In this document: piece by piece, positions 44,114-63,953 of the stretch
How the letters are laid out: every line of letters begins with the position of its first letter
How positions within the stretch are numbered: position 1 is the first letter of the stretch
Source of the DNA: Parabacteroides sp. AM08-6
GTDB lineage: Bacteria > Bacteroidota > Bacteroidia > Bacteroidales > Tannerellaceae
DNA length: 64,000 nucleotides
Reading direction: 5' to 3'
Assembly (NCBI RefSeq): GCF_003473295.1
Contig: NZ_QRMP01000001.1
Location: 376,097-440,096 of the forward strand
Notes under the pieces: model-generated
What the model was told of the DNA's origin: nothing
What the model saw: the letters and a program-made list of their open reading frames with translations, nothing else
Database searches by the model: none
Program-made: the position numbers and the translations under genes

Positions 44114-44190
44114 ACACAACGTCTTTAATCAGAAAACGAAAATACAATAAATCGGGTATATTCGCAAATCTTAACACTATTGTAATATAT

Positions 44191-46748: not shown

Positions 46749-48413
46749 CTAATTCTCTTCGGCTGGTTGGTACAAATAACGTTTGATGCTCCGCTTCGGT
46801 GTTTTCTCAAACTCTTCCTGATACAATTTGAAGCAAGTCACCTTGCTGTAGCCGGGCATTTCAGTATTCAGTTGGTCGATGTTTTGTTGCATGAGAGCTT
46901 CTATCTCGGAGTGTTGGATACCGGCTTTATCGACCTGTTCCCAGTCTGGATAGATAAGAGCTATTAGTTTTCCGTTTTGTGAAATAACTAGCGACTCTGC
47001 AACATAAAGCATATTGTTCAAACGGTCTTCTATCTCTTCCGGGTAAATATTTTGTCCGTTCGAACTCAATATCATACTTTTACTTCGGCCTCGAATATAG
47101 AGAGAACCGTCGGCATCCATTGTCCCTAAGTCACCTGTACGTAACCAACCATCCGGCATCATGACCGCTTGGGTTGCTTCCGGATTTTTATAGTAACCCA
47201 ACATTACATTCATACCACGAACAAGTATTTCACCGACTTCATGTTCCGGATCGTCCGAGTCAATACGGATTTCCATCCGGTCGACTACACGCCCTACAGA
47301 ACCCTGCTTGAATACATCCCACTGGGCATACGATACCAACGGGCCGCATTCGGTCATGCCATATCCAATCGTGTAACGGAAATTGATGGATTTCAGGAAA
47401 GTTTCCACCTCCTTATTAATAGCAGCTCCTCCAATAACAATCTCACCAAAATTACCTCCAAATGAGGCGTCTAGTTTTTGAGCAATCGTATTCCGGACTT
47501 TCTGGTCGACATAGGGGACTTTCAATAATAATTTAATCAACGGCTTTTCCAACTCCGGGAATACCTTATTCTTGATAATTTTCTCAATAATAAGCGGAAC
47601 TGCGAGGATAAGTGCCGGTTTTACTGTGGCAAAGGCCTCTGCTATAATCTTCGGACTGGGGGTGCGGGTCAGAAAATGTATATGACAACCCTTATTAACT
47701 CCGTTAAGTACTTCGAAAGCTAAACCATACATATGCGCCATCGGCAACATACAGACAAAATTATCTCCCGGATGTATGAATGGGAGATTATCGTAAGCAA
47801 ATTGCGTATTACTCCACAAGCTACGGTAGGGTATCATCACACCTTTTGAAAAACTGGTCGTACCGGATGTATAATTCAAAACAGCCAATTCTTCCGGCTT
47901 CTCTACATGATATTTCACATCGTTGGCTGTAAAGGAACGGGGATATTTCTTTCCGAAATATTCATTTATACGCTCACGTACAGAATAGACATCTTTACTT
48001 TTACTGTCGATGATGGAGAAATCATCCAACATCATGAATAGACGGACATCCGGCATTTTCTTTTCATTCATATTTTCCCAGTTGCTGGAACCTGCCAGAA
48101 CAGCTTTCGCTTCCGAATGGTTGACGATATGATGAATGTTGTCCGGTTTGAAATCATGTAAAATAGGCACTGCCACAGCTCCGTAAGCTAATATGCCGAA
48201 AAAACAGATAGCCCAATTAGACGAATTACGTCCGACAAGAGCTACTTTATCACCCGGTTTGATGCCTGCATGTTCCAAAATGATATGAAACTTCTCTATC
48301 CGGCGGGCCACATCTTTATAATGGTATGTATGTCCGTTATAATCTGAGAACGCTGGCAAATCCCAATGTTCTTTGATGCTTTTCTCTATAAGGCCTAAGA
48401 AACGATTATCCAT
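46749..48413 (-). CDS. AMP-forming long-chain acyl-CoA synthetase-like protein
   Basis: This 554-residue cytoplasmic or membrane-associated protein activates a carboxylic acid with ATP, probably forming acyl-CoA. Motifs in order are the AMP-binding loop LNYTSGTTSFSKGVM near residues 188-202, the YGMTECGPLVSYA motif, the GWLRTGDLGTMDADGSLYIRGRSKSMI hinge region, and a C-terminal GYSKVTCFKLYQEEFEKTPKRSIKR with the catalytic Lys. It resembles the fatty-acid branch found in Bacteroidales. It has its own promoter at 48460-48467. Confidence 0.9.
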   Translation of the reverse strand: MDNRFLGLIEKSIKEHWDLPAFSDYNGHTYHYKDVARRIEKFHIILEHAGIKPGDKVALVGRNSSNWAICFFGILAYGAVAVPILHDFKPDNIHHIVNHSEAKAVLAGSSNWENMNEKKMPDVRLFMMLDDFSIIDSKSKDVYSVRERINEYFGKKYPRSFTANDVKYHVEKPEELAVLNYTSGTTSFSKGVMIPYRSLWSNTQFAYDNLPFIHPGDNFVCMLPMAHMYGLAFEVLNGVNKGCHIHFLTRTPSPKIIAEAFATVKPALILAVPLIIEKIIKNKVFPELEKPLIKLLLKVPYVDQKVRNTIAQKLDASFGGNFGEIVIGGAAINKEVETFLKSINFRYTIGYGMTECGPLVSYAQWDVFKQGSVGRVVDRMEIRIDSDDPEHEVGEILVRGMNVMLGYYKNPEATQAVMMPDGWLRTGDLGTMDADGSLYIRGRSKSMILSSNGQNIYPEEIEDRLNNMLYVAESLVISQNGKLIALIYPDWEQVDKAGIQHSEIEALMQQNIDQLNTEMPGYSKVTCFKLYQEEFEKTPKRSIKRYLYQPAEEN

Positions 48414-48505: not shown

Positions 48506-49393
48506 TTATTCAATTATGCTGATTGAAGATATCATGCCAAAAGTTTCATTATTGTTAATGCTCCAGACCATACGTCCCATACCATCTAATTCAAGAAGTT
48601 GAGGGCTGTTGGCTTCTATAGCACTTTTATCGTGCCCTTGCCAGTTACAGACATATAGTCCATCGCCATACGAGGGTAGCAATTGGGCAACAAAGAAAAG
48701 ACGAGCGTTCTTAATATCGTTTTCACCATAACGACGTACAATTTCACCACTATCCAGATTCATTTCCATTAAAGAGTGACCATCACCACATGCCACCCAG
48801 TAATTGCCGTTACTCAAAGCGAATGTACTGAAAGGAGTGCCTTCTGTTATTGTCGTGTTTACGAGTTCACCTTGGGGAGTTACTTCACGAATATCGGAAG
48901 TTGCAAAAAGAGGTATTAAATAGTTACCGCGTTTATTCTTGTTGACCTGACGGAATTGGGAATGCGTGTTGAGAATACCGGTCTCATATTCTGTTCGGGA
49001 GAGGATATCTCCTTTGGGGCTGACTTCCATAATAACAGCCGGATGACCGCACCAGGCTAATAGATAATTGCCATCGGGCAAGACACGTGCAGTCTGCATT
49101 TCACCATTATCGGGAGCTGGAATATCCCAGACTTCCTTGTGTTCGCGGGTGATGACTTTAGCCCCCCGAGCATAGGAGAAAAGGATGTTGCCGTCGGGTG
49201 TTGCAGCTACAGAATTGCATTCCCAGCCTTTCTCAAGAGGATGCTCCCATTCTATTTGTTTTGTTTTCTTATCGATAATCACGATTTTATTCCATCCGGA
49301 ACCACCCAATAACAGTTTCATGGCTTTTTGCTGACATGAGGTAAGCGAAGAAAGGAGTAAAACAGAGCAAAAGAAAGTTATTATTTTCTTCAT
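48506..49393 (-). CDS. Exported beta-propeller (PQQ-like repeat) lipoprotein
   Basis: This 295-residue lipoprotein (signal MKKIITFFCSVLLLSSLTSC, Cys20) is built of repeats such as VAATPDGNILFSYARG, ARVLPDGNYLLAWCGHP and FALSNGNYWVACGDG. These are typical of PQQ-like or arylsulfotransferase-like propellers. No enzyme site is evident. It lies 82 bases beyond the lsrF-like gene, on the same strand but after a strong terminator, so it is probably transcribed separately. A role with the upstream redox cluster is possible but unproven. Confidence 0.75.
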   Translation of the reverse strand: MKKIITFFCSVLLLSSLTSCQQKAMKLLLGGSGWNKIVIIDKKTKQIEWEHPLEKGWECNSVAATPDGNILFSYARGAKVITREHKEVWDIPAPDNGEMQTARVLPDGNYLLAWCGHPAVIMEVSPKGDILSRTEYETGILNTHSQFRQVNKNKRGNYLIPLFATSDIREVTPQGELVNTTITEGTPFSTFALSNGNYWVACGDGHSLMEMNLDSGEIVRRYGENDIKNARLFFVAQLLPSYGDGLYVCNWQGHDKSAIEANSPQLLELDGMGRMVWSINNNETFGMISSISIIE

Positions 49394-49434: not shown

Positions 49435-49470
49435 TAAATAGTTCAAGGCCGGGCAGCCTTGAACTATTTA
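49435..49470 (-). terminator. Terminator after the dhaK-dhaL-lsrF unit
   Basis: A perfect 15-bp inverted repeat (arms 49435-49449 and 49456-49470) with a six-base loop begins five bases beyond the stop codon of the LsrF-like gene. The stem has a GC-rich tip and an AT-rich base. It marks the end of the VOC-dhaK-dhaL-lsrF transcript. Confidence 0.85.
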
Positions 49471-52059: not shown

Positions 52060-52374
52060 TTATTTAATTTCCATAATCTCGATGGCAATGCCTTCTTCCT
52101 CGATAAACGCGATAGTCAAATGTTCGTCGCAGGGAGCCGGGCCGAAAATAACCTTTTTGCCTTTCAGTTCTTCTTCAATCGAGGGGACGGTGTAAGCAAT
52201 ATGTCCCTGTGTTTGTACCAGTTCGGGCAGACAACTGCCTGCTTCAAACTTCAGAAATTCGATACGGTTCGGGCTCTGATTGTAATCGGTCAGCCAGACA
52301 TTCAAACCTTCGTTCAAAATAGCGCCTTCTTTCTTTTCGGTAGTTACGATACCGATGTGATTAAATGTTCTCAT
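52060..52374 (-). CDS. VOC (glyoxalase/dioxygenase superfamily) protein
   Basis: This 104-residue protein has the vicinal-oxygen-chelate pattern: an opening MRTFNHIGIVTTEK with a metal-binding His, a central Glu in NRIEFLKFEAGS, then GHIAYTVPSIEEEL with the next His, and a late acidic strand EEEGIAIEIMEI. Such proteins are metal-dependent isomerases, epimerases or lyases. It heads the unit with dhaK, dhaL and the LsrF-like gene and may isomerise or epimerise the substrate of that branch. Confidence 0.8.
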   Translation of the reverse strand: MRTFNHIGIVTTEKKEGAILNEGLNVWLTDYNQSPNRIEFLKFEAGSCLPELVQTQGHIAYTVPSIEEELKGKKVIFGPAPCDEHLTIAFIEEEGIAIEIMEIK

Positions 52375-52497: not shown

Positions 52498-54930
52498 TCA
52501 CAATTTCTTCCATTTCCTTCCGGAAATACAAGCCAAGACAATCACCACCCCGAAAGTGACATAGAGATATGTAAATATCCCGTGAACATTATCGTTTTGT
52601 CCATACGAATGCATACCGCTCAGGAAATAATTCACCCCGAAAAAGGTCATCAATACCGAAGCAAAGGCTACGACCGAGGTAAAATTGAACAACCACGGAT
52701 TGTTCCAACGTTTCACCAAGTGAAGGTGTGTCACAACGGCATACACGACCATTGTAATCAGCGCCCAAGTCTCTTTCGGGTCCCACCCCCAGTAGCGTCC
52801 CCACGATTCGTTTGCCCAAACAGCACCGAGAAATGTCCCGACCGTCATCAGTGCCAGTCCCACCAGCAACGACATTTCGTTTACAATACTCAATTCCCGG
52901 ATACGGGCTTTCAGGATAACTGCATTTTTCTTTCCGGAGATGCTCATCATCAGCATATTTGTCAAACCAATCAGGCAACTGATACCGAAAAAGCCGTAAG
53001 CCGCCACGATAACGGCCACATGAAACATCAACCACGGTGATTTCAGCACCGGGACAAGCGGATTAATCTCCGGGTCCATCCAATTCAAGCCGGACACAAA
53101 AAGAATGATGCCTCCGAACAGCGTAGCCAATGCCAACGTAATGCGGCTGCGACGCACAAACAGCAATCCAGCCAGTACCGTTGCCCATGCCACATAAACC
53201 ATTATCTCATACGAATTGCTCCACGGTGCATAGCCTCCGATATACCAGCGTATTCCCATTCCGAACATGTGGAAATGGAATACCACCAATATACCGATTC
53301 CCAGCAGCCATGCCGTTATCTTTGTCCAACGTTGTTGACTGAACAACATAATAAAAGAGAAGATAAGCAGTAATCCGCCTAAAATCAGATAGCCAATCTT
53401 ACAATAGCGAAATACATCCATCCGGTTGTATTTTAATTCCGCCTGGATGCGTTTGGGACTAATATCGAGTGTTTTGTTTTTAGCCTGTTGATAGGTCGAA
53501 ATCATGCCGGCCACTTCATCAGCCTTGCTCCAGTCTCCCTTTTTTAAAGCAGTTTGCACCTCAGACAGATACCAATCCATAATATGAGAAACGAATATCG
53601 AATCTTTGCCGCTGAAGCCGGACAAATCGTCGCCCGGCGCATACCATTTGTGATTCGGGTCATCCTCCTTCGGGAAGAGGTTTAGCATTTGATGGCTGAT
53701 GAGCAGATGGAAGATATTGATTTGCTCGTCCAGTTTCATCAAATCTTTGTCGAAACGAGTACGTTGGGCAGGCATTTTATTATAAGCCTCTTCCAACTTT
53801 TGTTGCAATTTGTAATTACCGTTTGCGTCGATTACCTGGATATAGGCGCATTCGCCATCCGTCAGGTCGAAATAATTAGCCAGTTCGGGGTTGGAAAGAG
53901 CGATAAACGGAACACGCATCCACATGTCCGGCATCGCCAAAAGGCTCAAAAGGAACTGGTCGGAATTGAGTGTGCCTATCTTATCAGACTTATGCAATTT
54001 ACGAAGCACTTCGGACGAGAAAGTGTTGATTGGCATCATACGTCCCTTGCTCGATTGTATAGGCAGCGCACCAAAACGGGCTGCATGCTCCGGATTTATC
54101 TGATACTTCTGTATGACATCCAGCATGGGCGATGTCTTTTCTTTCGCTCCTGCTTCCATCGACAAGGCAAGCAAAACGAGAACGATGGCAGTTGTACCTG
54201 TTGCCGCCCGCAGTTCTTTCAACCGACGACTCAGACGCATGAAACGGGAGTCTTTCCCGATGAGACTTAGAATAAGGCCAATCACCAAAAGCAGATAGCC
54301 TGTATAAGTTATACTCCGTCCGGCCAAATCACGGCTGACGGAAAGAATAGTACCCTGTTCGTCCTTGTCATACGAAGCCTGGAAGAAACGGTAACCTTTT
54401 ACATCCAATACGTTATTCATATATATCCGTTCACGATGGGTCTGGCCGTCCACATGGACCAACACTTCGCTTTCATAAGCCGAAGGACTGGTTGAACCGG
54501 GATAACGGGTTAAAGTAAATTTCACAAGTTCTACGGAAAAGGGTAAGGTATGAAAATAAGAGTTATCGGAAGTACGGACGGCAATACGATTGCTCGTTTC
54601 ACCTTCACGGAGGTGCAAGATGCCTTCTTCGCCGAAAAGGAATGAGGTGAGGGCGCCGAGAAGGATAATGATAAATGCACCATGCACAAGCATCAGTCCC
54701 CATTTACCACGTCGAAGGTATTGGTGTTTGATTGTTGCGGCAATAAAATTGACTACCAGCAGGAACTGGAGCAGGAAAAATAGCGGGGAATAATAAATCA
54801 TCGCTTTGGCAGCTACTGTCCCGTGATACTTTTCGACGAAAGTTGCGACGGCCAGGCCAAAGGCGTAAATGAGTAACAAGACGATTGTCGTTACAAAGGA
54901 AGAGATAAATCTTTCGAGAGTTGCTTTCAT
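52498..54930 (-). CDS. ccsBA: Fused cytochrome c synthase CcsBA (ResB-ResC type)
   Basis: This 810-residue inner-membrane protein carries haem across the membrane and attaches it to CxxCH motifs of exported cytochromes (system II). The N-terminal half (to about residue 270) is ResB/CcsB-like. A periplasmic stretch of about 240 residues follows, and the C-terminal half is CcsA-like. Its WWD haem-handling motif is WGRYWGWDPKETWALI, with conserved His residues around it (VVTHLHLVKRW and SGMHSYG). The start at 54930 (MKATLERF) fits the family. In Bacteroidales this gene usually sits beside nrfHA; here it follows genes for two other multi-haem proteins. A candidate promoter lies at 54998-55005. 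Confidence 0.93.
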   Translation of the reverse strand: MKATLERFISSFVTTIVLLLIYAFGLAVATFVEKYHGTVAAKAMIYYSPLFFLLQFLLVVNFIAATIKHQYLRRGKWGLMLVHGAFIIILLGALTSFLFGEEGILHLREGETSNRIAVRTSDNSYFHTLPFSVELVKFTLTRYPGSTSPSAYESEVLVHVDGQTHRERIYMNNVLDVKGYRFFQASYDKDEQGTILSVSRDLAGRSITYTGYLLLVIGLILSLIGKDSRFMRLSRRLKELRAATGTTAIVLVLLALSMEAGAKEKTSPMLDVIQKYQINPEHAARFGALPIQSSKGRMMPINTFSSEVLRKLHKSDKIGTLNSDQFLLSLLAMPDMWMRVPFIALSNPELANYFDLTDGECAYIQVIDANGNYKLQQKLEEAYNKMPAQRTRFDKDLMKLDEQINIFHLLISHQMLNLFPKEDDPNHKWYAPGDDLSGFSGKDSIFVSHIMDWYLSEVQTALKKGDWSKADEVAGMISTYQQAKNKTLDISPKRIQAELKYNRMDVFRYCKIGYLILGGLLLIFSFIMLFSQQRWTKITAWLLGIGILVVFHFHMFGMGIRWYIGGYAPWSNSYEIMVYVAWATVLAGLLFVRRSRITLALATLFGGIILFVSGLNWMDPEINPLVPVLKSPWLMFHVAVIVAAYGFFGISCLIGLTNMLMMSISGKKNAVILKARIRELSIVNEMSLLVGLALMTVGTFLGAVWANESWGRYWGWDPKETWALITMVVYAVVTHLHLVKRWNNPWLFNFTSVVAFASVLMTFFGVNYFLSGMHSYGQNDNVHGIFTYLYVTFGVVIVLACISGRKWKKL

Positions 54931-54980
54931 TTGTTTTCTTATTAAAGAGAATATAAACATACCCGGCAGTCGGAGAATAA

Positions 54981-55063
54981 AGACTACACTGATGCGACAA
55001 ATTTACACAGATAAATCAATTGGTGAAATACTCTGCGACAATCTTGCCACATCAGTGTTGTCT
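54981..55063. repeat. 20-bp inverted repeats flanking the ccsBA promoter box
   Basis: Arms at 54981-55000 and 55044-55063 match as reverse complements at 17 of 20 positions (core ACACTGATG/CATCAGTGT). The 43-base spacer contains most of the -7 box TAAATTTG, and both arms end in CAA/TTG at the spacer border. Inverting the spacer would rebuild TAAATTTG facing the other way. This is the architecture of an invertible promoter; a long-loop hairpin is the alternative. Confidence 0.55.
54998..55005 (-). promoter_or_regulatory. -7 promoter element for ccsBA
   Basis: The minus strand reads TAAATTTG, 67 bases before the chosen ccsBA start. It straddles the inner edge of the left inverted-repeat arm. 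Confidence 0.5.
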
Positions 55064-55096
55064 ATCATTCATAAATAATATTTATATCTCCTTTTT

Positions 55097-58000
55097 TCAT
55101 TCGTCTTCAATAATGACACGGAAGCCCACATTGAACACGGTCTGATACGGATAATAAGCCTTGCGGGTATAAGCTGTCGCGTATTTCGGACGTTCGATGT
55201 ACGAACCACCGCGAACCACTTTGTACTCGGATGTTCCTTTCGCCTTTTCCGTGTAGGGATATGGCAGATAATCCGAACGGGTCCATTCGGCAACATTCCC
55301 GTGCATGTTATACAAACCGAACGGGTTGGCCTGATAACATTTTTCTCCGGTCTGAACCAGATTTCCGTCATCTACATTCTCCTCTTTCGGCAGGAAGATG
55401 TAGTATTTATACCAGAATGCAGTTTTCGGCATCGGCTGCGGATCGATACCGCTAACAGCCAACTTGAGTGTCGTTTTGTCCGCCAAATTCTCGTATTTAC
55501 CGAAATCCGTATTCAGATTGCCATACCAGAAATCTTCACCGCTTCCGGCACGACAAGCCCATTCCCATTGGGCTTCGGTTGGAAGCGTAATGTTCAACCC
55601 GGTCTTTTCGCTTAGCTGTTTACAATACTCCATTGCGGAGTTATAGCTGACACGGATAACCGGCTGCTCCGGTTTATTGGCCGGATAACCTTGGTTGACA
55701 TGATCTTTCCATTGCTGGTCTACGTAGCGACTGTCGTGTTCAGGGAATATTACCCGATATTGTTCGTTGGTCACTTCCATTTCACCCATCCAGAAAGCTT
55801 TGTCGATTTTTACTTTGGAAGTAGGATAACAATCCTTCTGTCCGTGATAACTACCCATGACGAACTGTCCGGCAGGGATACGAACGAAGGTCATCTTGAT
55901 GCCCGGAGCCAGCTCTATCTCTTTACGAGTTGACTTTTCGTCGGCTAACATAGCTTTGATAGCTGTTGCATCGAATGGCCATCCTTTTACCTTCAGCGAC
56001 TTTTCCTTTACAGGCGGCTCTTTTTCCGGCATAACCGGAGTAATCGGACCTTTCGACTTCAAGTAGTCCGCGTAGTCGGCAATTTCTTTCTTCCAGTCCA
56101 CACCCGCTTCGTTCGCATATTTATCCGTCAATTCCTTACGACGAGCTATCTGGTCGAAGCCCTGATAAGGGAAATCCGTCAAAACATTGGCATTGAAATA
56201 ACCTTTATCCGGAGCATTATAGTCAATCCAGTTGTAAAGTGTTTTCCATTCGGCATCCGTCAGCTTAACATTATGGTGTCCTTTCTTCAGTAAACGTACC
56301 AGTTCGCTGGTGTTCGGATGATATTCGTATGGATGGAGTACAACCATATCGCCTTCGCCTCCTTGACGATGGATATAAGGATGAAAATTCAGGTAAGAAG
56401 TACCGTATCCCAACTCGTCTTTCTTTCCGCCACGCAAATCGAATGCTTTCTCTCCGTTATGACAAGCGATACAGGCACGATCCAGAATAGGCTGTATCTC
56501 CAAATCGAAAGTGAACGAACGAACGCCTCCTTCGGGAGCTTTCAGTACATGGGGAGCTTTTTGTGAAGCCATTACGCGTTTGGGTATAGGTATTTGATTC
56601 TGGTCTTCATGGCAACCGATACACGATACGACCTCACCCGGCTGACCGGTCAACCAGCTACGCATCCATTGGATGGCAACCCCGTCTTTGTCGATTGGCT
56701 GGATGGATATCGGAGTATTAGCCGGTATCTTGAAGATAGCAGAACCGTCTTCTTCCACTGGAACCGTACCCAGTAGACGTTTGATATCCCAACCACTTTG
56801 GATACCGTGCCAGTTATGGTCGGAAGTAGTCTTTACATAAGCATATTCGTAGGCATGCAGACGAAGTTCTTTGACTGTTCCGCGGGGGATACCGCGAAGA
56901 CCCTCGCCCTGATAAATATCCTGGATAAATACCGTCGCTTCTTTATCTCCCAGCTTTACACGGTCAGGAATTGCCGGCGGTGTTGTCGTTTTACGAACTG
57001 CTATCGGACTGATATATCCCTCGCCTTCCGTTTTCATCAGGCAAGTAACATTATCATAGATATCTACCAAATACAATCCCCAAAGAGATTGAGGGTCGAG
57101 CTTGGCAGCAACCAGAAAGTATTTATCGTCTAATGCCGTCGGTTTTATAAATTGCGGCCATACACCATTAACCAATTCGTCTTTTATCAGTTCGACAACC
57201 GGACGGTTGCGATGAGGTATCTCTTGCAACATACCAGCCGTACCCTTACGTGCTTTTGTCGGATCGAAAATAATCAGACGGCCGGAGCGGGCAATGCCGT
57301 GGTGTCCGGAAATAACGCCGATAAAAGCAGATGAATGTCCGGGTAAAGGTTGTACATCGAACGTACTGTTCGGAAACATCGAACCACTACCATACAAAGC
57401 TTTATTTTCCGTTCCGTCCGGATTCATGTGCATCACGATACGGGAATAGTAGTGCGTCAAGTCGGTATACTCCCAGCGAGTGTACATCACGCGACCATTA
57501 TTCATAACAACAGGATTCCAGTTAGCATCCTGGTCAAATGTCAAACGGCGCAGGTCTTTTTTTTCCGGAGTATAAAGTATCATATTACCTACAGCGTCAT
57601 AGCCACTTACACAGGGAACTCCCTGGTATCCAATGTTTGAGTTGGCAATAATACGACCATCAGGCAGATAAGTGCCGTCATAAAATTCCAAATCAGGTTC
57701 CTCGTTCTCCACCAATTTTTTGAAGCCGGTTCCGTCCAATTTTACTTCAAATACATTCCAGCGTTTATCCGGTTGTGTCTGAGTAAACATCATGCGATCT
57801 CCGTCCCAGTGCAAACGGAGGTCGGCTATGGAAGAACCATTAGACGGTTTATACACCTGACGCGTGTTGATATCACCACGCAGATTGGATAGTTCCACGA
57901 TTTCAGCATCAAAACCTTCACGAGGTGCCGACTCTTGGTTGCTCCAGTTATTAGCCTGCGTTCCTAGTTCAGGAGCCATCGCCTGGCGAGCTTGAGAGCC

Positions 58001-59089
58001 CAATTTATAACGCACAGCTACCACCTTGTCCGAATCCAGTAACGGATTACCTAACAGAATAGCCCGTTTATTTTCCAAAGCCTTACGAGCATCGCCCATT
58101 GCCTGCTCATTTCCCTGGTAAATACCGTCAAAACCTTTCTGATGAAGTTGTATTAACTCATTGTATAACGGTTCATATTTGGCAACATCATACCCCTTCT
58201 GCTTTTTCATGTCAGCAAAAGCCAGTTTAATGGCATCCATATTCAACCATTCAAGTTCACTTTGAAGCTCATAGACACTCTGCATCTGTTCGAACAGTTC
58301 CAAATATTTACGGATTTGTGTATCTACATCTTTTTCAGATGCTATCTGCATAATGGTTTTCTTATAAAAATCACCGTCTTTCAGTCTGCCGGCAATTTCT
58401 TCCACTATTTGTTTTTCAACAGAAGCATCCGGTGTAATCAGCCAAGTCTCCAATCCATCCATAGATGCACTCAGCAGACTTATTTGCGGATATTTAGCTA
58501 TCAACTCATCTCCTATATTTTTAGGAAATACATTCATGGCCTGAAAGAATACACTACCGGTTTGCGAGTCATCATCGATGCCTACTTCTGCTTCGAAACG
58601 TACATATTTATTATCCACGGGATAAACCAGCATACCGTCGGCATGACAGAATACACCGTGCGGATACAACTTTCCAGCAATATGCAAAGCTTTTTCATAA
58701 ACATTGACATTCATCATTGGACTACCCCAACCGGCTACACCATATTCGTAAGGAATTTCATCCAACCATACGGAAGAACCATCAGCCGCTATCAAGCGTG
58801 CGTTTCCCCATACAGCATGGTCGTAGCTAGAGCCATCGGGTCCTCCGGATGTGATAAGTACAAGCTTCTCAACACCTTTCAGGTCAACCACAAACGGTTC
58901 TGCTTTGTCTTTATGCTTCATATATTTGGAAATGACCGGCATTCCCGCTTTCTGAAGTTCGGACCGCAATTCCGATTTAGCTTTAACCGATGCATCAATC
59001 CATGTTTCCACCTTTTTCTGCTTTGGCCCTGCCAGCATCAAAACAGAGGAAGAAATGAAGAATGAAACGATTAATAAGTATTTATTCAT
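55097..59089 (-). CDS. Giant exported di-haem protein: NPCBM-like, beta-propeller, hydrazine-synthase-alpha-like and FGE-like domains
   Basis: This 1330-residue exported protein (signal about 1-20) has at least four parts. Residues about 55-190 resemble an NPCBM carbohydrate-binding module (FVVDLKGVEKLVLIT, GVFCHADGMLVYPVDNKYVRFEAEVGID). Residues about 190-370 are helical. Residues about 405-760 form a TolB/PD40-like propeller (LRLHWDGDRMMFTQT, YLPDGRIIANSN, RVMYTRWEYTDL). Next is a region resembling hydrazine synthase alpha, with two c-type haem sites: CIGCH (823-827) and CIACH (873-877). The last 270 residues match the formylglycine-generating-enzyme/SUMF1 fold (IPAGQFVMGS, MEVTNEQY, LPTEAQWEWACRAG, NMHGNVAEWTRSDY, VVRGGSY, FRVI). 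It probably works in the periplasm or at the outer membrane. Hydrazine chemistry is not implied; relatives are simply of unknown function. Confidence 0.85.
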   Translation of the reverse strand: MNKYLLIVSFFISSSVLMLAGPKQKKVETWIDASVKAKSELRSELQKAGMPVISKYMKHKDKAEPFVVDLKGVEKLVLITSGGPDGSSYDHAVWGNARLIAADGSSVWLDEIPYEYGVAGWGSPMMNVNVYEKALHIAGKLYPHGVFCHADGMLVYPVDNKYVRFEAEVGIDDDSQTGSVFFQAMNVFPKNIGDELIAKYPQISLLSASMDGLETWLITPDASVEKQIVEEIAGRLKDGDFYKKTIMQIASEKDVDTQIRKYLELFEQMQSVYELQSELEWLNMDAIKLAFADMKKQKGYDVAKYEPLYNELIQLHQKGFDGIYQGNEQAMGDARKALENKRAILLGNPLLDSDKVVAVRYKLGSQARQAMAPELGTQANNWSNQESAPREGFDAEIVELSNLRGDINTRQVYKPSNGSSIADLRLHWDGDRMMFTQTQPDKRWNVFEVKLDGTGFKKLVENEEPDLEFYDGTYLPDGRIIANSNIGYQGVPCVSGYDAVGNMILYTPEKKDLRRLTFDQDANWNPVVMNNGRVMYTRWEYTDLTHYYSRIVMHMNPDGTENKALYGSGSMFPNSTFDVQPLPGHSSAFIGVISGHHGIARSGRLIIFDPTKARKGTAGMLQEIPHRNRPVVELIKDELVNGVWPQFIKPTALDDKYFLVAAKLDPQSLWGLYLVDIYDNVTCLMKTEGEGYISPIAVRKTTTPPAIPDRVKLGDKEATVFIQDIYQGEGLRGIPRGTVKELRLHAYEYAYVKTTSDHNWHGIQSGWDIKRLLGTVPVEEDGSAIFKIPANTPISIQPIDKDGVAIQWMRSWLTGQPGEVVSCIGCHEDQNQIPIPKRVMASQKAPHVLKAPEGGVRSFTFDLEIQPILDRACIACHNGEKAFDLRGGKKDELGYGTSYLNFHPYIHRQGGEGDMVVLHPYEYHPNTSELVRLLKKGHHNVKLTDAEWKTLYNWIDYNAPDKGYFNANVLTDFPYQGFDQIARRKELTDKYANEAGVDWKKEIADYADYLKSKGPITPVMPEKEPPVKEKSLKVKGWPFDATAIKAMLADEKSTRKEIELAPGIKMTFVRIPAGQFVMGSYHGQKDCYPTSKVKIDKAFWMGEMEVTNEQYRVIFPEHDSRYVDQQWKDHVNQGYPANKPEQPVIRVSYNSAMEYCKQLSEKTGLNITLPTEAQWEWACRAGSGEDFWYGNLNTDFGKYENLADKTTLKLAVSGIDPQPMPKTAFWYKYYIFLPKEENVDDGNLVQTGEKCYQANPFGLYNMHGNVAEWTRSDYLPYPYTEKAKGTSEYKVVRGGSYIERPKYATAYTRKAYYPYQTVFNVGFRVIIEDE

Positions 59090-59104
59090 GGGAGTTGTTT
59101 ATTA

Positions 59105-59872
59105 TTAAAGCGCAGCTTTCTTGTTCGTGAAACGTAATCCATCGTTATCATGATAACAAGCCCATTCATCCACGATAGCACCTTCCGGTCCAGCCATCAT
59201 AAAATGGAATGTCTCAAGTTTTTTCAAACGCAGAATGTCACCGACTTTCTGTACTGCGAAATTCTTACTCTTAATCGGTCCGTGACTGGCAGGAATAGCC
59301 GGTGCATTCGGAGTTTCATCACCTATTTCCGAGAAGTTATAAACCCAGCCTTTTTCTACCATCCATGATTCATGTTTAGCAGGGAATTTGGTCTTCACAT
59401 GCGCATGTTCAGGAATCATTTGTCCCGGCAACAAATAGATGGCGTGAGCAAAGTAACCATATTCAGCATCGTTTATCCAGAAAACGCCTCCCATACCTAC
59501 ATTTTCAAAATCGCCCAGACCGAAATCTGTTACCCACATTTCTTTACCCATAAATTCGGTAAAAGGAACACCATAAAAATCAAACATGTCTTTCATTGCC
59601 TTCATGGCAACATCTTGTTGAAACTTGCCGTCCTTATAGAAATCGGCATTTGTGTACTTTTTAGAATAAGTCATTTCTTTATTAATTTTACAGTTAGTTT
59701 TTTTATTACATTCATTTCCGCAATCACTGCCACATTGCTCGGTACATTGTCCTTTCCCAGCAGCAGCACAACAAGTTGCATCTCCCGAAGTAGATGTTTT
59801 TCCGGTACAGGCCACCATCGAGCACAAAAGCATTGCCACGGCAGCCGATTTGAAATTGAGTCCTTTTTTCAT
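59105..59872 (-). CDS. Cys-rich lipoprotein with D-lyxose isomerase-like cupin
   Basis: This 255-residue exported lipoprotein (Cys22 in LLCSMVACTGK) has a short linker with seven Cys residues (CC...C...C...C...C...C, about residues 34-62). The cupin barrel follows from about residue 70. The barrel carries the metal-ligand pattern of D-lyxose/mannose isomerase-like cupins: PEHAHVKTKFPAKHESWMV with His-x-His and a later Glu, and LETFHFMM with a further His. It starts 15 bases from the next gene. An exported sugar-isomerase-like cupin is unusual, and the Cys linker could bind metal or form disulfides. Confidence 0.75.
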   Translation of the reverse strand: MKKGLNFKSAAVAMLLCSMVACTGKTSTSGDATCCAAAGKGQCTEQCGSDCGNECNKKTNCKINKEMTYSKKYTNADFYKDGKFQQDVAMKAMKDMFDFYGVPFTEFMGKEMWVTDFGLGDFENVGMGGVFWINDAEYGYFAHAIYLLPGQMIPEHAHVKTKFPAKHESWMVEKGWVYNFSEIGDETPNAPAIPASHGPIKSKNFAVQKVGDILRLKKLETFHFMMAGPEGAIVDEWACYHDNDGLRFTNKKAAL

Positions 59873-59927
59873 TTTTATTTTATCATATAAATTAGTAATA
59901 TTCGTTTCTTCTTTTGAGTGAGACCGA

Positions 59928-61025
59928 TCATTCGATTGCTATACCTTCAATCTCAACCAGCAATTCATCCCGACAAACATCCGCCCACATATAGGAAATG
60001 GGTATATTCAGTTTATAATCTTCTAATAATTCACGAGCTTCTTCATAAAAAGACTTTTCTTTCAGGTAAACTCGAAGCATCTTTAGCTTAGCTTTACCTG
60101 TCAACTGTGCGATATTTTCCATCGTGATATGAAGTTGTCGTTCCAATCCCACACCTATCAACGTTTCTTCTCCCCGAATAGCAGCCGTCCCGGAAATGTA
60201 GACAAGTCGTCGGTTATCGAATGTCATACTTTTGGCCCGCTCGAACTTCGGTGTTGTTTTTTTCTGTCCGGCCATTTCCAATACTTGCTCAGAATAAGCA
60301 TGCGCGGCCACTTGCAGTTTATTATCTATCGGTGTGGCAAAACAACGGGACGAAGTAAACTGAACCGCATCTATATCTACCAGAACACCTCCTAAATTAG
60401 CCCCGATACCGGTCGCAGCCGGATAACCATTATTCCATTCTGTCTGGCTGTAAAAATCACTACGAGCATTATTAAATATCTGATAATGCTGGTCAGGACC
60501 ATCGAACTTCGTTATCTGCTCAAGATAATTCCACTGACGAATGATACTCTCTACCGGAAATTCTTCTCTACGCATCACCTCTCCTATGAGTCGGAACACC
60601 TCATCAGATTGCTGGCGGATACCGGATTTAATAACACTACCATGAAATCCTCCGGCAAACAGAAAACGTCCATCCCCGTTTTCCAACAGGACATAAGGGA
60701 AGTCACCAAAATGTCGATAGCTCAATTTGTCGCAATCTTCTGCCCTGTAGCTATGCACTTCTACTATTAATCCTCCATTTAGAGGAGGTTGGGATACATA
60801 ACTTAACACAGGATTACAGTCTCCAGTAAATTTTCGGACTTTTTCATTCAACAAAATCCGACGCGAAACATATTCTTCATTATCCGCCGGCATACCGAAA
60901 AAAGCAAGTCGGAAAATAGCTTCGTCTTTCGGTAATTGTGCCAACAATGCATCGACCATTTCTTCGAAAGAAAAAGCTTTTTCCGTCGTATAGATTGTAT
61001 AGTGTATTTTATCGCAATAATTCAT
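59928..61025 (-). CDS. Chorismatase-like protein (FkbO/Hyg5 family, YjgF-like fold)
   Basis: This 365-residue protein has no signal peptide and is probably cytoplasmic. The middle, RQWNYLEQITKFDGPDQHYQIFNNARSDFY followed by YPAATGIGANLGGVLVDIDAVQ, matches the FkbO/Hyg5 chorismatase pattern. Its C-terminal half resembles a YjgF/RidA domain (RLVYISGTAAIRGEETLIGVGLERQL...MLRVYLKE). Characterised relatives hydrolyse or convert chorismate in antibiotic pathways; none of that context is present here, so the real substrate is probably different. It lies 29 bases after the YVTN di-haem gene and 55 bases before the cupin gene in the same run. Confidence 0.7.
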   Translation of the reverse strand: MNYCDKIHYTIYTTEKAFSFEEMVDALLAQLPKDEAIFRLAFFGMPADNEEYVSRRILLNEKVRKFTGDCNPVLSYVSQPPLNGGLIVEVHSYRAEDCDKLSYRHFGDFPYVLLENGDGRFLFAGGFHGSVIKSGIRQQSDEVFRLIGEVMRREEFPVESIIRQWNYLEQITKFDGPDQHYQIFNNARSDFYSQTEWNNGYPAATGIGANLGGVLVDIDAVQFTSSRCFATPIDNKLQVAAHAYSEQVLEMAGQKKTTPKFERAKSMTFDNRRLVYISGTAAIRGEETLIGVGLERQLHITMENIAQLTGKAKLKMLRVYLKEKSFYEEARELLEDYKLNIPISYMWADVCRDELLVEIEGIAIE

Positions 61026-61054
61026 GTTATTTATTGAATGTTATTCTCATTTTT

Positions 61055-62830
61055 TTACAAGGAATTTACATATTCCGTAAGAGCATCTATCTCTTTTTTA
61101 GAGATTTTCTTCTTAATGCCATGTTTATAAACATCAAAAACCTCTTCCATTGTAGCAGCACGGCCGTTAAACAGATAAGGAGCTGTACGCCATACTTCAC
61201 GCAAAGTCGGAGTATCCCATCCTTGTTCAAATTCAATATTTTCGCCGATACGATGCATCTTCATATCGGTAAAATAAGGACCGGAATGACATTCACTGCA
61301 TTTCAGTTTTTCAAATACTTTGCGTCCCTCTTTGGCAAGCTCAGATAATTCTCCATTCACCAAATACGGACTAGGTACGGGTTGAAGTGATTTTAAATAA
61401 GCGTCCACACATGCAGCATCTTCTTCCGTAATATCAAAAAACTGAATAAACTTAAAGCCAGCGCGTACAGCCCATTCGGCCGTTTCCCGTATACCGGAAA
61501 TCATACTGGGAGGCGTTACATGACTAAAAAGCAAACTCTTACAATTCTTTGAATTTCCAACGCCATCGTTCATCAAATCCCAATTCATTCCATCTGTCCG
61601 GGCTTCTCCGGGATGGCAACCATTGCAACTTTGCCAGTTCTGAAAACAATGGGAAGCATCATTGAAATATTTTTCACCTTTGTTTTCCGCACTTTCCTCT
61701 CGTTCAGGATTCAAATTTGTAACTGTTATCTCGCAAGTATTAATGTCCATGACATTTAATATATCGGCAAAATAAGTCGGAACAACCAACTTATCGCCAG
61801 TCAAAACCATACTTCGAGGACCGTTACCCTGTAAAGGAATGCGATTACGCAGGCCGTAAAGGAAGGTCAAGTCATAGTCCAAAGCAGCTTTATCCGAATA
61901 GTTCTCAAACTTCTCACGCATTGCTTTATGGTTGATTACACTAACTTCATGTGTACCGGAATGTGTGATGAAGATTGCATCTTCATTACAAGCAATACTC
62001 CAGATGCCAGCCGCTCCCCGTTCAGGCTCATCTACCAGAACGGCACCCACAAATTCCTGCTTCGCCACATCGATGATACTAAAAGCACTGGTATTCATCC
62101 ACCCCTGCTGCAACTGCGAAGTCGGAACTGTAAAACGTCCCAGATTATGCGATACATATATATATTTACCATCCGGCGTAATACAGATTCCGCGCAAAGC
62201 ATTACTACCATTTGCCAACTGTATATCTTTGATTTTTGTAAAACTTTTCAGCTCAATAACCGATACGCAAGCAGCCACATAATCCAAGTCCGCCCGTTGT
62301 GCTGGTAAAAAATTCGTCACAAACAAATATTTACCGTCTTGACTGAATACAGCCGATTTCGGTTCGCGCAAAACTTGTACATTTCGTATTACCTTATAGT
62401 TTGACAAATCAATTTCCGACACTGTATTTGTAAACTGATTACACACATACAGGTATTTTCCTTCAGGGCCGAACATTGGATGACAAGCACCTGCACCAGT
62501 TGAAACCGAAGCCTCTATCCTGCCCGATTCCAATTGCAAAACCTGTAAATGTCCACCTGTCGGACCAAACGTGGTAACGTATGCTTTCATTTCGTCTTGA
62601 ACAATGCCGGTGGGAACTTCATCCATCGGATATGATTTCAACAACGTTTTCCCATCACTCGATAAAAGTACCACCCGCTTCATGCCCTTTTCCGTTATAA
62701 GCATCTCCCCTTTCTTATTCAGGACAATGTCTGTCGGAAAGAACGGCAGATTGCCCGCTGAAGCAAAAGAGATGAAGCAGGCCAAACAGGCTATCAAAGT
62801 AATTTTTAATAGATGTTTTCGTGTATTCAT
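61055..62830 (-). CDS. Exported YVTN beta-propeller fused to MauG/peroxidase-like di-haem domain
   Basis: This 591-residue exported protein has the signal peptide MNTRKHLLKITLIACLACFISFASA. Residues about 30-385 form a YVTN-type propeller with repeats such as MFGPEGKYLYVCNQFTNTVSEIDL and ICITPDGKYIYVSHNLG. The C-terminal 200 residues resemble a MauG/cytochrome c peroxidase domain with haem sites CNGCH (402-406) and CSECH (511-515), and the motif WDTPTLREVWRTAPYLFNGRA. It follows the IclR gene by 33 bases and is followed by the chorismatase-like gene after 29 bases. An electron-transfer or oxidase role with the 1330-residue di-haem protein is the natural inference. Confidence 0.85.
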   Translation of the reverse strand: MNTRKHLLKITLIACLACFISFASAGNLPFFPTDIVLNKKGEMLITEKGMKRVVLLSSDGKTLLKSYPMDEVPTGIVQDEMKAYVTTFGPTGGHLQVLQLESGRIEASVSTGAGACHPMFGPEGKYLYVCNQFTNTVSEIDLSNYKVIRNVQVLREPKSAVFSQDGKYLFVTNFLPAQRADLDYVAACVSVIELKSFTKIKDIQLANGSNALRGICITPDGKYIYVSHNLGRFTVPTSQLQQGWMNTSAFSIIDVAKQEFVGAVLVDEPERGAAGIWSIACNEDAIFITHSGTHEVSVINHKAMREKFENYSDKAALDYDLTFLYGLRNRIPLQGNGPRSMVLTGDKLVVPTYFADILNVMDINTCEITVTNLNPEREESAENKGEKYFNDASHCFQNWQSCNGCHPGEARTDGMNWDLMNDGVGNSKNCKSLLFSHVTPPSMISGIRETAEWAVRAGFKFIQFFDITEEDAACVDAYLKSLQPVPSPYLVNGELSELAKEGRKVFEKLKCSECHSGPYFTDMKMHRIGENIEFEQGWDTPTLREVWRTAPYLFNGRAATMEEVFDVYKHGIKKKISKKEIDALTEYVNSL

Positions 62831-62863
62831 GGCGCATATATATTATATATCTTATAAAAATTC

Positions 62864-63670
62864 TCAATTCTCATTTTTTCTAAATCCTAAATCTCGTGAG
62901 ATATCCTCAGCTATCTTTTTTATACATACTGCAGAACTTCGCGTCACCTCTTTCGAAAGACGGTCTTTAGGACCGGATATCCAAATGGCTCCGCAAGGAT
63001 AACCCGTGTAATTAAAGATAGGTGCACCAACACAAATTACCCCATTTAGCTCCTCTTCGTTATCCAGAGCATAGCCAAAATTACGTACTTTTTCAAGTTC
63101 AGCCAGATAAGCTTCACGCGTCGTAATAGTACGGGAATTGTATTGTTCAAATTTCATATACGAAAGATAACGGTCGCGCACTGTATTCGGAAGATAAGCC
63201 ATAATAGCTTTGCCGGGCGCAGAACAATGTAACTCAAACGACTTTCCGGGGGACAAGATAAAACGGAAAGTATGATGTCCTTGCGCCTGTTCTATAAAAA
63301 TCCCTTTTTCGTCACCCAACACTCCAAAGCAGGCTGTTTCCTTTACCTGATCGCGCAAATCACGCAACCGAGGCAATACGGTTTCCAGTAAGTTGTGTTC
63401 ATTTAAGGAACGAAATCCCAGCGTCAACAGTTTTCTTGAAAGTTTATATCGTTTTGTATCTTCATCATATATGAGATAATCCAACCGAACCAATGTATTC
63501 AAAATCCGGTAAGCCGTAGTCTGTGAAATATCAAGCGCCGATTTTATACTCTGCAACGTTTCTCCTTGAAAATGAAGCGAGAGATACTCAATCACTGCAA
63601 TACCTTTTTCCAGATTCGGAACCTTATAGTTTTCTTCCAGCTTTTCCATATTTGGAACAGTGTTTTTCAT
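62864..63670 (-). CDS. IclR-family transcriptional regulator
   Basis: This 268-residue regulator has an N-terminal winged helix-turn-helix (about residues 18-80: EKGIAVIEYLSLH, SALDISQTTAYRILNTLVRLDYL). The IclR ligand-binding domain follows (CFGVLGDEKGIFIEQAQGHHTFRF, LHCSAPGKAIMAYLP, FGYALDNEEELNGVICVGAPIFNYTGYPCGAIWISGP). Members typically bind small carboxylates or sugar acids. It is the first gene of the haem-protein run and lies 33 bases before the YVTN gene, so it probably controls the operon and itself. A second in-frame ATG at 63649 is possible. Confidence 0.93.
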   Translation of the reverse strand: MKNTVPNMEKLEENYKVPNLEKGIAVIEYLSLHFQGETLQSIKSALDISQTTAYRILNTLVRLDYLIYDEDTKRYKLSRKLLTLGFRSLNEHNLLETVLPRLRDLRDQVKETACFGVLGDEKGIFIEQAQGHHTFRFILSPGKSFELHCSAPGKAIMAYLPNTVRDRYLSYMKFEQYNSRTITTREAYLAELEKVRNFGYALDNEEELNGVICVGAPIFNYTGYPCGAIWISGPKDRLSKEVTRSSAVCIKKIAEDISRDLGFRKNEN

Positions 63671-63673
63671 ATT

Positions 63674-63688
63674 TGAAATATTGTTTCA
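63674..63688. promoter_or_regulatory. Putative IclR operator
   Basis: TGAAA-TATTG-TTTCA has perfect 5-base arms and lies 10-24 bases downstream of the -7 box, next to the expected transcription start. A related 21-base copy (CATATTTG...TGTTTTT) sits just downstream at 63648-63668. Binding here would repress. Confidence 0.5.
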
Positions 63689-63705: not shown

Positions 63706-63843
63706 AGTGGCACATAATTAAAGTGACTACAAAGAATGTGAAAAGACGTTAAGTATGTCGTAAAGCATAAAGAGATGGAAGCGTTCAGAGTCAGCGTATC
63801 TCCATTATGGACATTTTATTCTTTCTGTTCCGATAAAAGCATC

Positions 63844-63953
63844 CAACCTCTTATTCGTTCAACGTTCGTGAAACGCAAAAGCATCGAACGTATTTTTTGC
63901 GTTCAACGTTCGTATTTTTTTCGTTCAGCGAACGTGAAACGCAAATAAGGTTG
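63844..63953. repeat. 110-base palindromic element with GAACGTGAAACGC repeats
   Basis: The ends (CAACCTCTTATT at 63844 and AATAAGGTTG ending 63953) are imperfect terminal inverted repeats of about 30 bases. The interior contains four copies of the core GAACG/CGTTC arranged in both orientations, including GAACGTGAAACGC at 63930-63942. It shares the GAACGTGAAA core with the element at 18106-18201 and may be a small dispersed, possibly MITE-like, repeat. Confidence 0.55.

Follow-up and report, generated by a model that had tools for sequence, protein, structure and literature searches.

Homologues of hydrazine synthase lie beside an LsrF-type thiolase in a conserved operon of gut Bacteroidales

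Introduction

What would two exported di-haem proteins do in Parabacteroides sp. AM08-6, and which of the neighbouring genes share their task? The question is raised by a stretch of 64,000 nucleotides (contig NZ_QRMP01000001.1, positions 376,097 to 440,096; hereafter the window), in which 11 co-directional minus-strand genes run from 63670 to 48506. A sequence-only reading had described the first six of them (63670 to 52498) as a redox system of the periplasm, equipped with a dedicated cytochrome c synthase and a local IclR regulator and serving oxidation or electron transfer. These six genes are present exactly at the coordinates claimed, and the redox system is supported by the domains and haem motifs of the proteins, by conservation of the operon and by an array resembling an operator. 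The run of six is real and conserved, but it is only the first half: five further genes follow downstream, in the order VOC-like protein, DhaK, DhaL, LsrF and propeller lipoprotein, and are conserved together with the first six. The redox part of the earlier idea thus stands, while the cytosolic kinase/thiolase half indicates a more specific, carbon-catabolic route.

As judged by sequence comparison, the two haem proteins are homologues of hydrazine synthase (HZS), the enzyme of anammox bacteria. The HZS homologues described outside anammox bacteria have no assigned function (Hagglund et al. 2025, PMC12758564). Searches of the open-licence PubMed Central (PMC) literature gave no paper on this operon, PMC12758564 being the closest on HZS homologues. 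We propose that the operon is probably a new way of degrading a small sugar-like compound, and not a hydrazine maker.

Results

The haem proteins and hydrazine synthase

The sequence-only reading was right to call its 'MauG-like' protein and its 'giant' di-haem proteins, but it overlooked their relationship to HZS: sequence comparison identifies the former as a homologue of the fused HZS β-γ (HzsBC-like) and the latter as a homologue of HZS α (HzsA-like). The four CxxCH motifs that it had counted in two exported proteins are there, two in each, with the signal peptides judged by eye. Among relatives, exactly two CxxCH occur in 80/80 near-full β-γ open reading frames (ORFs) and in 62/62 near-full α ORFs. 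The HzsBC-like protein matches the NCBIfam model of the HZS β-γ fusion with 101 bits, below the cut-off of 1250, and also the NCBIfam models of single γ and β chains. By sequence it finds PDB chains 5c2v_B (4e-18) and 5c2v_C (8.4e-17), and its γ half gives weak matches to the cytochrome c peroxidase (CCP)/MauG family. When its structural model was compared with 350,542 PDB chains by Foldseek, 5c2v_B ranked first (2.4e-19; template modelling (TM) score 0.83 by target and 0.50 by query). The closest named relative is the protein of Parabacteroides acidifaciens, at 81%.

The HzsA-like protein consists of a signal peptide (by eye), an NPCBM domain, a propeller-like part, the HZS_alpha middle domain, two CxxCH and a C-terminal FGE-like domain. 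PF18582 (HZS_alpha) is matched above cut-off, while the NCBIfam HZS α model reaches 44 of 800 bits, below cut-off; 5c2v_A is found at 0.00015 by sequence, over the middle domain only, and at 1.1e-6 by profile. Foldseek ranks 1 and 2 for a poor model of this protein are 5c2v_A and 5c2v_D (8.7e-18 and 3.4e-17 over 616 and 612 columns), and the next hit, at 3.1e-7, lies about ten orders of magnitude behind. Because these two ranks are far ahead in E-value despite low TM scores, we keep the fold match to HZS α as supporting only. Both models were built from shallow alignments, of 25 (HzsBC) and 24 (HzsA) close relatives. Taken together, the evidence makes the HZS chain set the most likely counterpart of the pair.

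Nevertheless, we rejected an identity as hydrazine synthase, because three tested catalytic residues of HZS (residue roles after PMC12758564 and PMC12607021) are missing; both NCBIfam equivalog cut-offs are missed as well. The position of α-Tyr591 (CxxCH+4) is N831, invariant in 26/26, and in the window protein the 12 residues that follow H827 include no Tyr. The third thioether, γ-Cys165, falls in a 12-residue alignment gap, although the invariant C395 and C430 elsewhere could substitute for it. The γ-His144 position is I444 in the PDB alignment, a residue made less sure by gaps that the profile alignment puts nearby. The distal haem γ-II ligand of HZS, His332 (PMC12607021), aligns with H570, invariant in 25/25. 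Full-length residue numbers were derived from chain numbers by our own count (chain C H293 = 332, C126 = 165).

CcsBA, the candidate for haem attachment, combines ResB (PF05140) and CcsA (PF01578) in one chain, both above cut-off, and scores 170.1 of 187.6 bits against TIGR03144.

Conservation of the operon

Loci (L numbers) were taken as the best 80 of 198 β-γ relatives from one scan of genome contigs; 57 Bacteroidales loci with at least 1.2 kb upstream and at least 9.5 kb downstream form the well-flanked subset. In that subset the cupin protein and HzsA are each present in 57 loci, the VOC-like protein and DhaK in 46, the chorismatase homologue in 45, IclR in 42 and CcsBA in 39. The figures for DhaL (30), LsrF (17) and the lipoprotein (13) are undercounts, since many loci end there. 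Across all 80 loci, IclR is found in 60 (59 on the β-γ strand) and CcsBA in 47. There are two main gene orders, that of the window and one that runs β-γ, chorismatase, cupin, VOC, DhaK, DhaL, LsrF, lipoprotein and HzsA; a third, cupin, HzsA, CcsBA and β-γ, occurs in three loci (L032, L043, L059). Operon carriers include Parabacteroides goldsteinii, P. gordonii, Bacteroides salyersiae and B. cellulosilyticus. Given that the same genes lie on one strand in relatives from several Bacteroidales families, their grouping is not due to chance. A lack of co-occurrence elsewhere had been named in advance as a ground for abandoning the idea; the genes are together in many Bacteroidales loci, with β-γ (E <= 1e-40) present in only 20 of 393 Bacteroidales genomes.

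LsrF (E <= 1e-60) is present in 10 of the same 393 genomes, nine of which also carry β-γ (hypergeometric 2.9e-12, kinship ignored); both genes lie on one contig in six of the nine and on different contigs in three. The tenth genome, G067, holds a diverged LsrF-like match (L098, G067:C172) with two stops, and no β-γ match. Among 20 chosen β-γ genomes, LsrF was found in eight. It was not found in any of the 12 genomes that have short clusters; several of these are metagenome-derived and maybe incomplete, and five are isolates by title (L015, L018, L019, L029, L031). The cupin (E <= 1e-20) is present in 13 of the 393 genomes, all with β-γ, and beyond the order a draw of 395 genomes from the phylum gave the centre genome only. 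Stretches from cupin-less β-γ genomes showed more distant HZS-like pairs in other contexts, and at L115 a cupin lies near a diverged HzsA. It should also be noted that a single genome of Bacteroides clarus (L041, L078) has two different cluster copies and two LsrF genes. In L016, menaquinone-type genes follow HzsA; we took them to be chance neighbours.

The cytosolic enzymes

LsrF lies above the cut-off of its NCBIfam equivalog. Residues 1-287 align with E. coli LsrF, 153 of 289 columns being identical, and K203, which we take to be the LsrF active-site lysine, is kept in the stretch IVKTYY, aligned with IIKTYY. DhaK-type kinases bind the carbonyl adjoining the hydroxyl that is phosphorylated. 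DhaK and DhaL score 290.6 of 406.25 bits against TIGR02363 and 130.4 of 138.3 bits against TIGR02365, respectively; both fall below the dihydroxyacetone-kinase cut-offs, which leaves room for another substrate, although their Pfam domains are complete and score above cut-off. In the VOC-like protein, H6, E39, H58 and E99 are invariant in 10/10, an arrangement that presumably represents the VOC metal-site pattern; Glyoxalase_4 is matched by two relatives, although below cut-off (0.0056 and 0.017). None of LsrB/ACD, LsrR and LsrK is encoded among the operon's own genes, which is as far as the search for these families extended.

The cupin protein and the chorismatase homologue

The earlier label 'cupin lipoprotein' stands, but a likeness to D-lyxose isomerases had been overlooked. 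The protein has no Pfam match; H156, H158, E168 and H223 are invariant in 15/15 and are presumably metal ligands, as in D-lyxose isomerases.

The location of this protein varies with the gene content of the locus. Twelve loci lack DhaK despite enough flank, and their genomes lack LsrF (for DhaK, the search covered the loci only); these twelve lie at about six places in a quick β-γ tree, in which 20 of 77 inner branches are open. The cupin has no export signal in 11 of these 12 loci, the exception being L061, versus one (L052) of 52 loci with DhaK. Scoring by script only gave 9/12 (Fisher 7.6e-8); after the N-termini had been read, L032 and L062 were also counted as signal-less (corrected Fisher 1.9e-10), kinship being ignored in both tests. 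Counted by tree position, five of six DhaK losses accompany signal loss. This table excludes L075, whose cupin frame is disrupted, and a further ten loci whose state was undecided; all ten have a signal. In the DhaK-less loci, HzsBC and HzsA keep their export signals by eye wherever the ORF start is clear; the β-γ starts of L029 and L062 are uncertain, and in L019 three ORFs share the HzsA sequence between them. Since the cupin signal tracks the presence of DhaK, the compartment of the cupin and the cytosolic route appear to be coupled, with the haem pair staying outside. At L016:12860-13000 a Cys-rich remnant with stops precedes a signal-less cupin, as if the lipoprotein signal had been lost recently, although this contig is metagenome-derived and an assembly error is possible.

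The chorismatase homologue reaches 91 of 325 bits against TIGR04444, below cut-off, and finds PDB 5ag3 at 1.1e-15. Hyg5 residues G173, G240, C327 and E334 correspond to G206, G279, C351 and E358, invariant in 15/15. E334 is catalytic in Hyg5 (PMC7170507, also the source for the residue roles in Nat-Hyg5), and the remaining Hyg5 numbers were derived from the offset of 9 in that paper. Because the gene is absent from some clusters, we regard its product as accessory.

The putative IclR operator and the carbohydrate context

Tandem imperfect palindromes (TGAAACAATATTTCA; TTTCAAATATGAAAA; TTCCAAATATGGAAA) lie in the start region of iclR. Among 58 such regions (57 loci and the window), exact TTYCAAATATGRAAA is present in 52 and exact TGAAAN5TTTCA in 31 between -40 and +30, and neither occurs in a control stretch (-150 to -80) of any of the 58. 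Of the 28 exact matches to TTYCAAATATGRAAA in fourteen genomes, our own coordinate arithmetic places 26 at the iclR start (12 pairs at a distance of 21 bp and two singles) and two elsewhere, against four matches for a reversed control pattern. The array is suggestive of an IclR operator, without amounting to proof, because it overlaps codons and part of its conservation may reflect protein constraint. A wider regulon was rejected, the two strays marking no other obvious locus. IclR is missing ahead of the clusters of the B. cellulosilyticus type, several of which are preceded by a hybrid two-component system (HTCS). A cluster of short repeats, both direct and inverted (CGTTCAACGTTCGT / GTGAAACGCAAA units), lies upstream of iclR, at 63835-63945.

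Glycoside hydrolases (GH) stand near some clusters. GH31, GH36 and an unclassified 680-residue protein, 'c2', lie upstream in seven loci (L064, L067, L068, L071, L073, L074, L078), with an HTCS also upstream in six of them; GH36 is also present at L032, L043 and L059, and GH95 at L052, L054, L099, L104 and L115. The 'c2' protein (L067:3319-5361 and relatives) sits between GH36 and the HTCS and has only a sub-threshold match to the GH65 C-terminal domain. General membership in glycan operons (polysaccharide utilization loci), as suggested by these neighbours and by SusCD, was removed by a control: GH, Sus, sulfatase or HTCS genes accompany 21/80 loci (19/47 long ones) and 7/15 further pair loci versus 9/20 controls, the latter being stretches from 6 genomes, with single reference sequences as the test. 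At L109:3202-11772, a second-type HZS-like pair is accompanied by an FGGY kinase, a Zn-alcohol dehydrogenase, a DeoC aldolase and a propeller lipoprotein. We draw a link to carbohydrate because of the NPCBM domain, the D-lyxose-isomerase-like cupin, the GH36-'c2'-HTCS synteny of one sublineage and the L109 neighbours.

Features of the window

The positions of the genes and sites are collected in Table 1. The spacing of 15-55 bp claimed for the first five genes holds, with gaps of 33, 29, 55 and 15 bp. The 166 bp given before ccsBA is correct for translation starting from codon 11, also an ATG; with the first ATG the gap is 136 bp. The gaps ahead of the VOC-like gene, DhaK, DhaL, LsrF and the lipoprotein are 123, 25, 12, 39 and 82 bp.

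Table 1. Genes, haem-binding motifs and putative operator of the operon in the window.
Feature	Position	Strand	Evidence or remark
IclR-family regulator, 268 aa	62864..63670	-	PF01614 1e-40, PF09339 3.5e-8
HzsBC-like, 591 aa: signal peptide (by eye), β-propeller, di-haem domain	61055..62830	-	NF052342 3.9e-29
FkbO/Hyg5-type chorismatase homologue, 365 aa, no signal peptide (by eye)	59928..61025	-	TIGR04444 6.5e-26, below cut-off
Cys-rich lipoprotein with D-lyxose-isomerase-like cupin domain, 255 aa	59105..59872	-	PDB 7nzo 4.5e-9, 2y0o 9.7e-8
HzsA-like, 1330 aa	55097..59089	-	PF18582 3e-37, PF08305 1.7e-25, PF03781 1.7e-41
CcsBA (ResB + CcsA), 820 aa, start possibly codon 11	52498..54960	-	PF01578 2.3e-35, PF05140 1.4e-22
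Small VOC-like protein, 104 aa; possible isomerase/epimerase	52060..52374	-	Invariant H6, E39, H58, E99
DhaK-type kinase subunit, 338 aa	51018..52034	-	PF02733 1.4e-96; PDB 3ct4 6.3e-62
DhaL-type kinase subunit, 204 aa	50391..51005	-	PF02734 4.4e-36
LsrF thiolase, 291 aa	49476..50351	-	NF006081 438.7 bits, cut-off 297; PDB 3gkf 3.6e-100
Propeller-type lipoprotein (PF22701), final conserved gene	48506..49393	-	Present in 15/80 loci, many ending before it
CxxCH, haem γ-I-like site (C402-H406)	61613..61627	-	C402, C405, H406 invariant 25/25
CxxCH, haem γ-II-like site (C511-H515)	61286..61300	-	Alignment to HZS
CxxCH, haem α-I-like site (C823-H827)	56609..56623	-	Position +4 is N831, no Tyr
CxxCH, haem α-II-like site (C873-H877)	56459..56473	-	Sequence
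Putative IclR operator array overlapping iclR start	63643..63688	-	TTCCAAATATGGAAA 63643-63657, TTTCAAATATGAAAA 63664-63678, TGAAACAATATTTCA 63674-63688

Matches to sigma-70-type promoters were uninformative (35 observed vs 35.6 expected). The gap between LsrF and the lipoprotein contains a 15-pair hairpin at 49435-49470, a possible attenuator or terminator, which the scan listed on the + strand only. Outside the conserved operon, a separate di-haem CCP/MauG-type protein is encoded at 43007-44119 with an esterase gene behind it (42146-42967) and two AraC regulators and a two-component system nearby. An AMP-ligase gene (46749-48413) was rejected as an operon member, having a single low-identity match, on the opposite strand, in the 80 loci. 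A plasmid-borne cluster was likewise rejected, since a 3.6-kb piece has no near match in 72,556 plasmids.

Discussion

Our tentative proposal is a single catabolic operon under its local IclR regulator, in which a periplasmic haem oxidoreductase and an isomerase feed a cytosolic kinase-isomerase-thiolase route. We infer all of the enzymatic steps, and our confidence in the mechanism is moderate to low. CcsBA would attach haem to the two exported proteins, which would form an HZS-like tetrahaem complex in the periplasm. This complex may oxidise or rearrange a small carbohydrate-derived substrate, giving a keto sugar in the simplest chain. The cupin would convert the substrate or product between its aldo and keto forms, with the 2-keto form arising in the simplest chain. 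Once the product has entered the cell, DhaKL would phosphorylate the terminal hydroxyl adjoining the carbonyl, the VOC-like protein would shift the carbonyl, a role held by LsrG in E. coli, and LsrF would cleave the resulting β-diketone phosphate with coenzyme A (CoA) into dihydroxyacetone phosphate (DHAP) and an acyl-CoA, which would be acetyl-CoA for five carbons. For the chorismatase homologue, the probable role is to open an intermediate with an enol-ether or imine group, or else to make an aromatic from chorismate.

Several observations weigh against this proposal. On the structural side, the HzsBC-like model has a good propeller but a poor haem domain, and the HzsA-like model (residues 370-1061) is of low confidence, with a predicted local distance difference test score (pLDDT) of 55 and with TM scores of 0.32 and 0.30 and a root-mean-square deviation near 16 (15.8 for rank 1) against 5c2v_A and 5c2v_D. 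The VOC-like protein has no Pfam match of its own, and its assignment is weak. No transporter is found among the operon's genes, nor does the operator point to one at another obvious locus. Twelve loci keep the haem pair but not the LsrF half, which shows the two halves to be separable, and L052 and L061 break the compartment rule. Seven of the 20 β-γ genomes among the 393 have no cupin match, and in L114, L116 and L117 a cupin copy lies away from the HZS-like pair, which is elsewhere in the genome. Genes of glycan use are not generally enriched around the loci.

The main rival explanation is consumption of autoinducer-2 (AI-2), which the orthology of LsrF fits equally. Here DhaKL would stand in for LsrK and the VOC-like protein for LsrG, the periplasmic proteins would act on AI-2 or a precursor, and 4,5-dihydroxy-2,3-pentanedione (DPD) from other gut bacteria would be quenched and eaten. 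E. coli LsrF converts phospho-hydroxypentanedione and CoA to DHAP and acetyl-CoA (PMC6410053, PMC7828210), and the protein of the window passes the equivalog cut-off. Furthermore, a Bacteroidetes lsrF homologue was significant in a body-site-specific gut model, for which AI-2 degradation was proposed (PMC6084841). We nonetheless consider this rival unlikely. It leaves without a role the two di-haem proteins and the cupin isomerase, which are commoner across loci than LsrF, as well as the chorismatase homologue, and no Lsr transporter is encoded among the operon's own genes. LuxS is found in one of eight LsrF genomes and in 5 of 24 overall, although neighbours could still supply AI-2; endogenous AI-2 was rejected as the substrate because LuxS was not found in seven of those eight.

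Alternatively, the pair might resemble HZS, CCP and MauG in reducing H2O2, nitric oxide (NO) or hydroxylamine in a periplasmic defence, with the other genes handling damaged deoxy-dicarbonyl sugars. The weak CCP/MauG-family matches of the γ half agree with this, as does the proposed reduction of NO by HZS haem γ-I (PMC12607021), and LsrF-type substrates would resemble the dicarbonyls of sugar degradation. However, the position of γ-His144, a Trp in CCP (PMC12758564), is Ile444, the local operator is almost confined to this operon, and the ORF clusters common to at least five loci, several of which were named by eye, contain no obvious stress gene. We regard such a defence as improbable.

A biosynthetic cluster appears slightly less probable again. 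In this case the chorismatase would make 3-hydroxybenzoate, a LsrF/DhnA-type aldolase and DhaKL would build a metabolite, and the haem proteins would oxidise or couple it outside the membrane. MbnH and MauG relatives do modify other molecules, and all four tested Hyg5 residues are invariant. The related DhnA-type aldolase model BagB/FevI (NF041223), which comes from natural-product pathways, is matched with 84 of 500 bits, but the best aldolase family is LsrF. The chorismatase gene is absent from 12 of the 57 well-flanked clusters and its product scores far below its family cut-off, and by eye the ORF clusters common to at least five loci include no gene resembling a nonribosomal peptide synthetase or polyketide synthase.

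True N-N chemistry by a gut hydrazine synthase is scarcely credible: both subunits are homologous and H570 aligns with the γ-II ligand, but γ-Cys165, γ-His144 and α-Tyr591 have no counterpart in the alignments and the bit scores fall far below both cut-offs.

Carried further, the catabolic proposal would mean that a second, non-anammox branch of the HZS fold serves gut Bacteroidales as an oxidoreductase for carbohydrate in the periplasm and is coupled to a thiolytic route of the LsrF type in a new catabolic pathway, the isomerase moving from the periplasm to the cytosol when the thiolase half is lost. This we hold to be possible, with more doubt than the proposal itself. If it is true, the published gut association of the Bacteroidetes lsrF homologue is a footprint of this pathway and not of signal quenching. 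Should that homologue be the LsrF described here, its AI-2 reading (PMC6084841) would be re-framed, because nine of the ten sampled Bacteroidales genomes with LsrF carry an HZS-like β-γ. A conserved operon with defined downstream chemistry in cultivated species would also make the function of non-anammox HZS-like pairs testable by gene removal.

Comparison with known systems

The chorismatase homologue resembles the FkbO/Hyg5 chorismatases in its family match and in the four tested Hyg5 residues; unlike them, it lies far under the family cut-off, in a catabolic-looking operon, and is absent from some clusters. The cupin protein shares with D-lyxose ketol-isomerases the cupin domain and a metal-binding pattern whose ligand roles we take as given. 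It differs from them in an export signal, mostly of lipoprotein type, in 62 of 74 loci scored; only in some is it Cys-rich.

Like the Lsr (AI-2) operon of E. coli, the present operon places an LsrF orthologue beside a kinase and an isomerase-like protein. The kinase here is of the DhaKL type, however, the isomerase candidate is VOC-like, and the HZS-like pair is added.

With anammox HZS (Kuenenia, PDB 5C2V), the pair has in common α and β-γ chains that are encoded together, the β propeller, two CxxCH per half, the HZS_alpha middle domain and the position of the γ-II distal His. In Scalindua japonica HZS, β and γ are fused too (PMC12758564). The differences are the missing residues tested at haems γ-I and α-I, the NPCBM and FGE-like domains, the other operon and the non-anammox host.

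The HZS-homologue clades I-IV (Hagglund et al. 2025, PMC12758564) likewise have co-localised α and β-γ, an unassigned function and missing HZS catalytic residues, Tyr591 included. For these clades the abstract names Planctomycetota and Desulfobacterota, whereas Bacteroidota are named for the β-γ tree. The text of that paper does not contain 'chorismat', and its gene-order passage mentions no cupin, kinase or thiolase. Relative to all of these systems, what is new is that HZS-homologous redox proteins are tied to an LsrF-type route.

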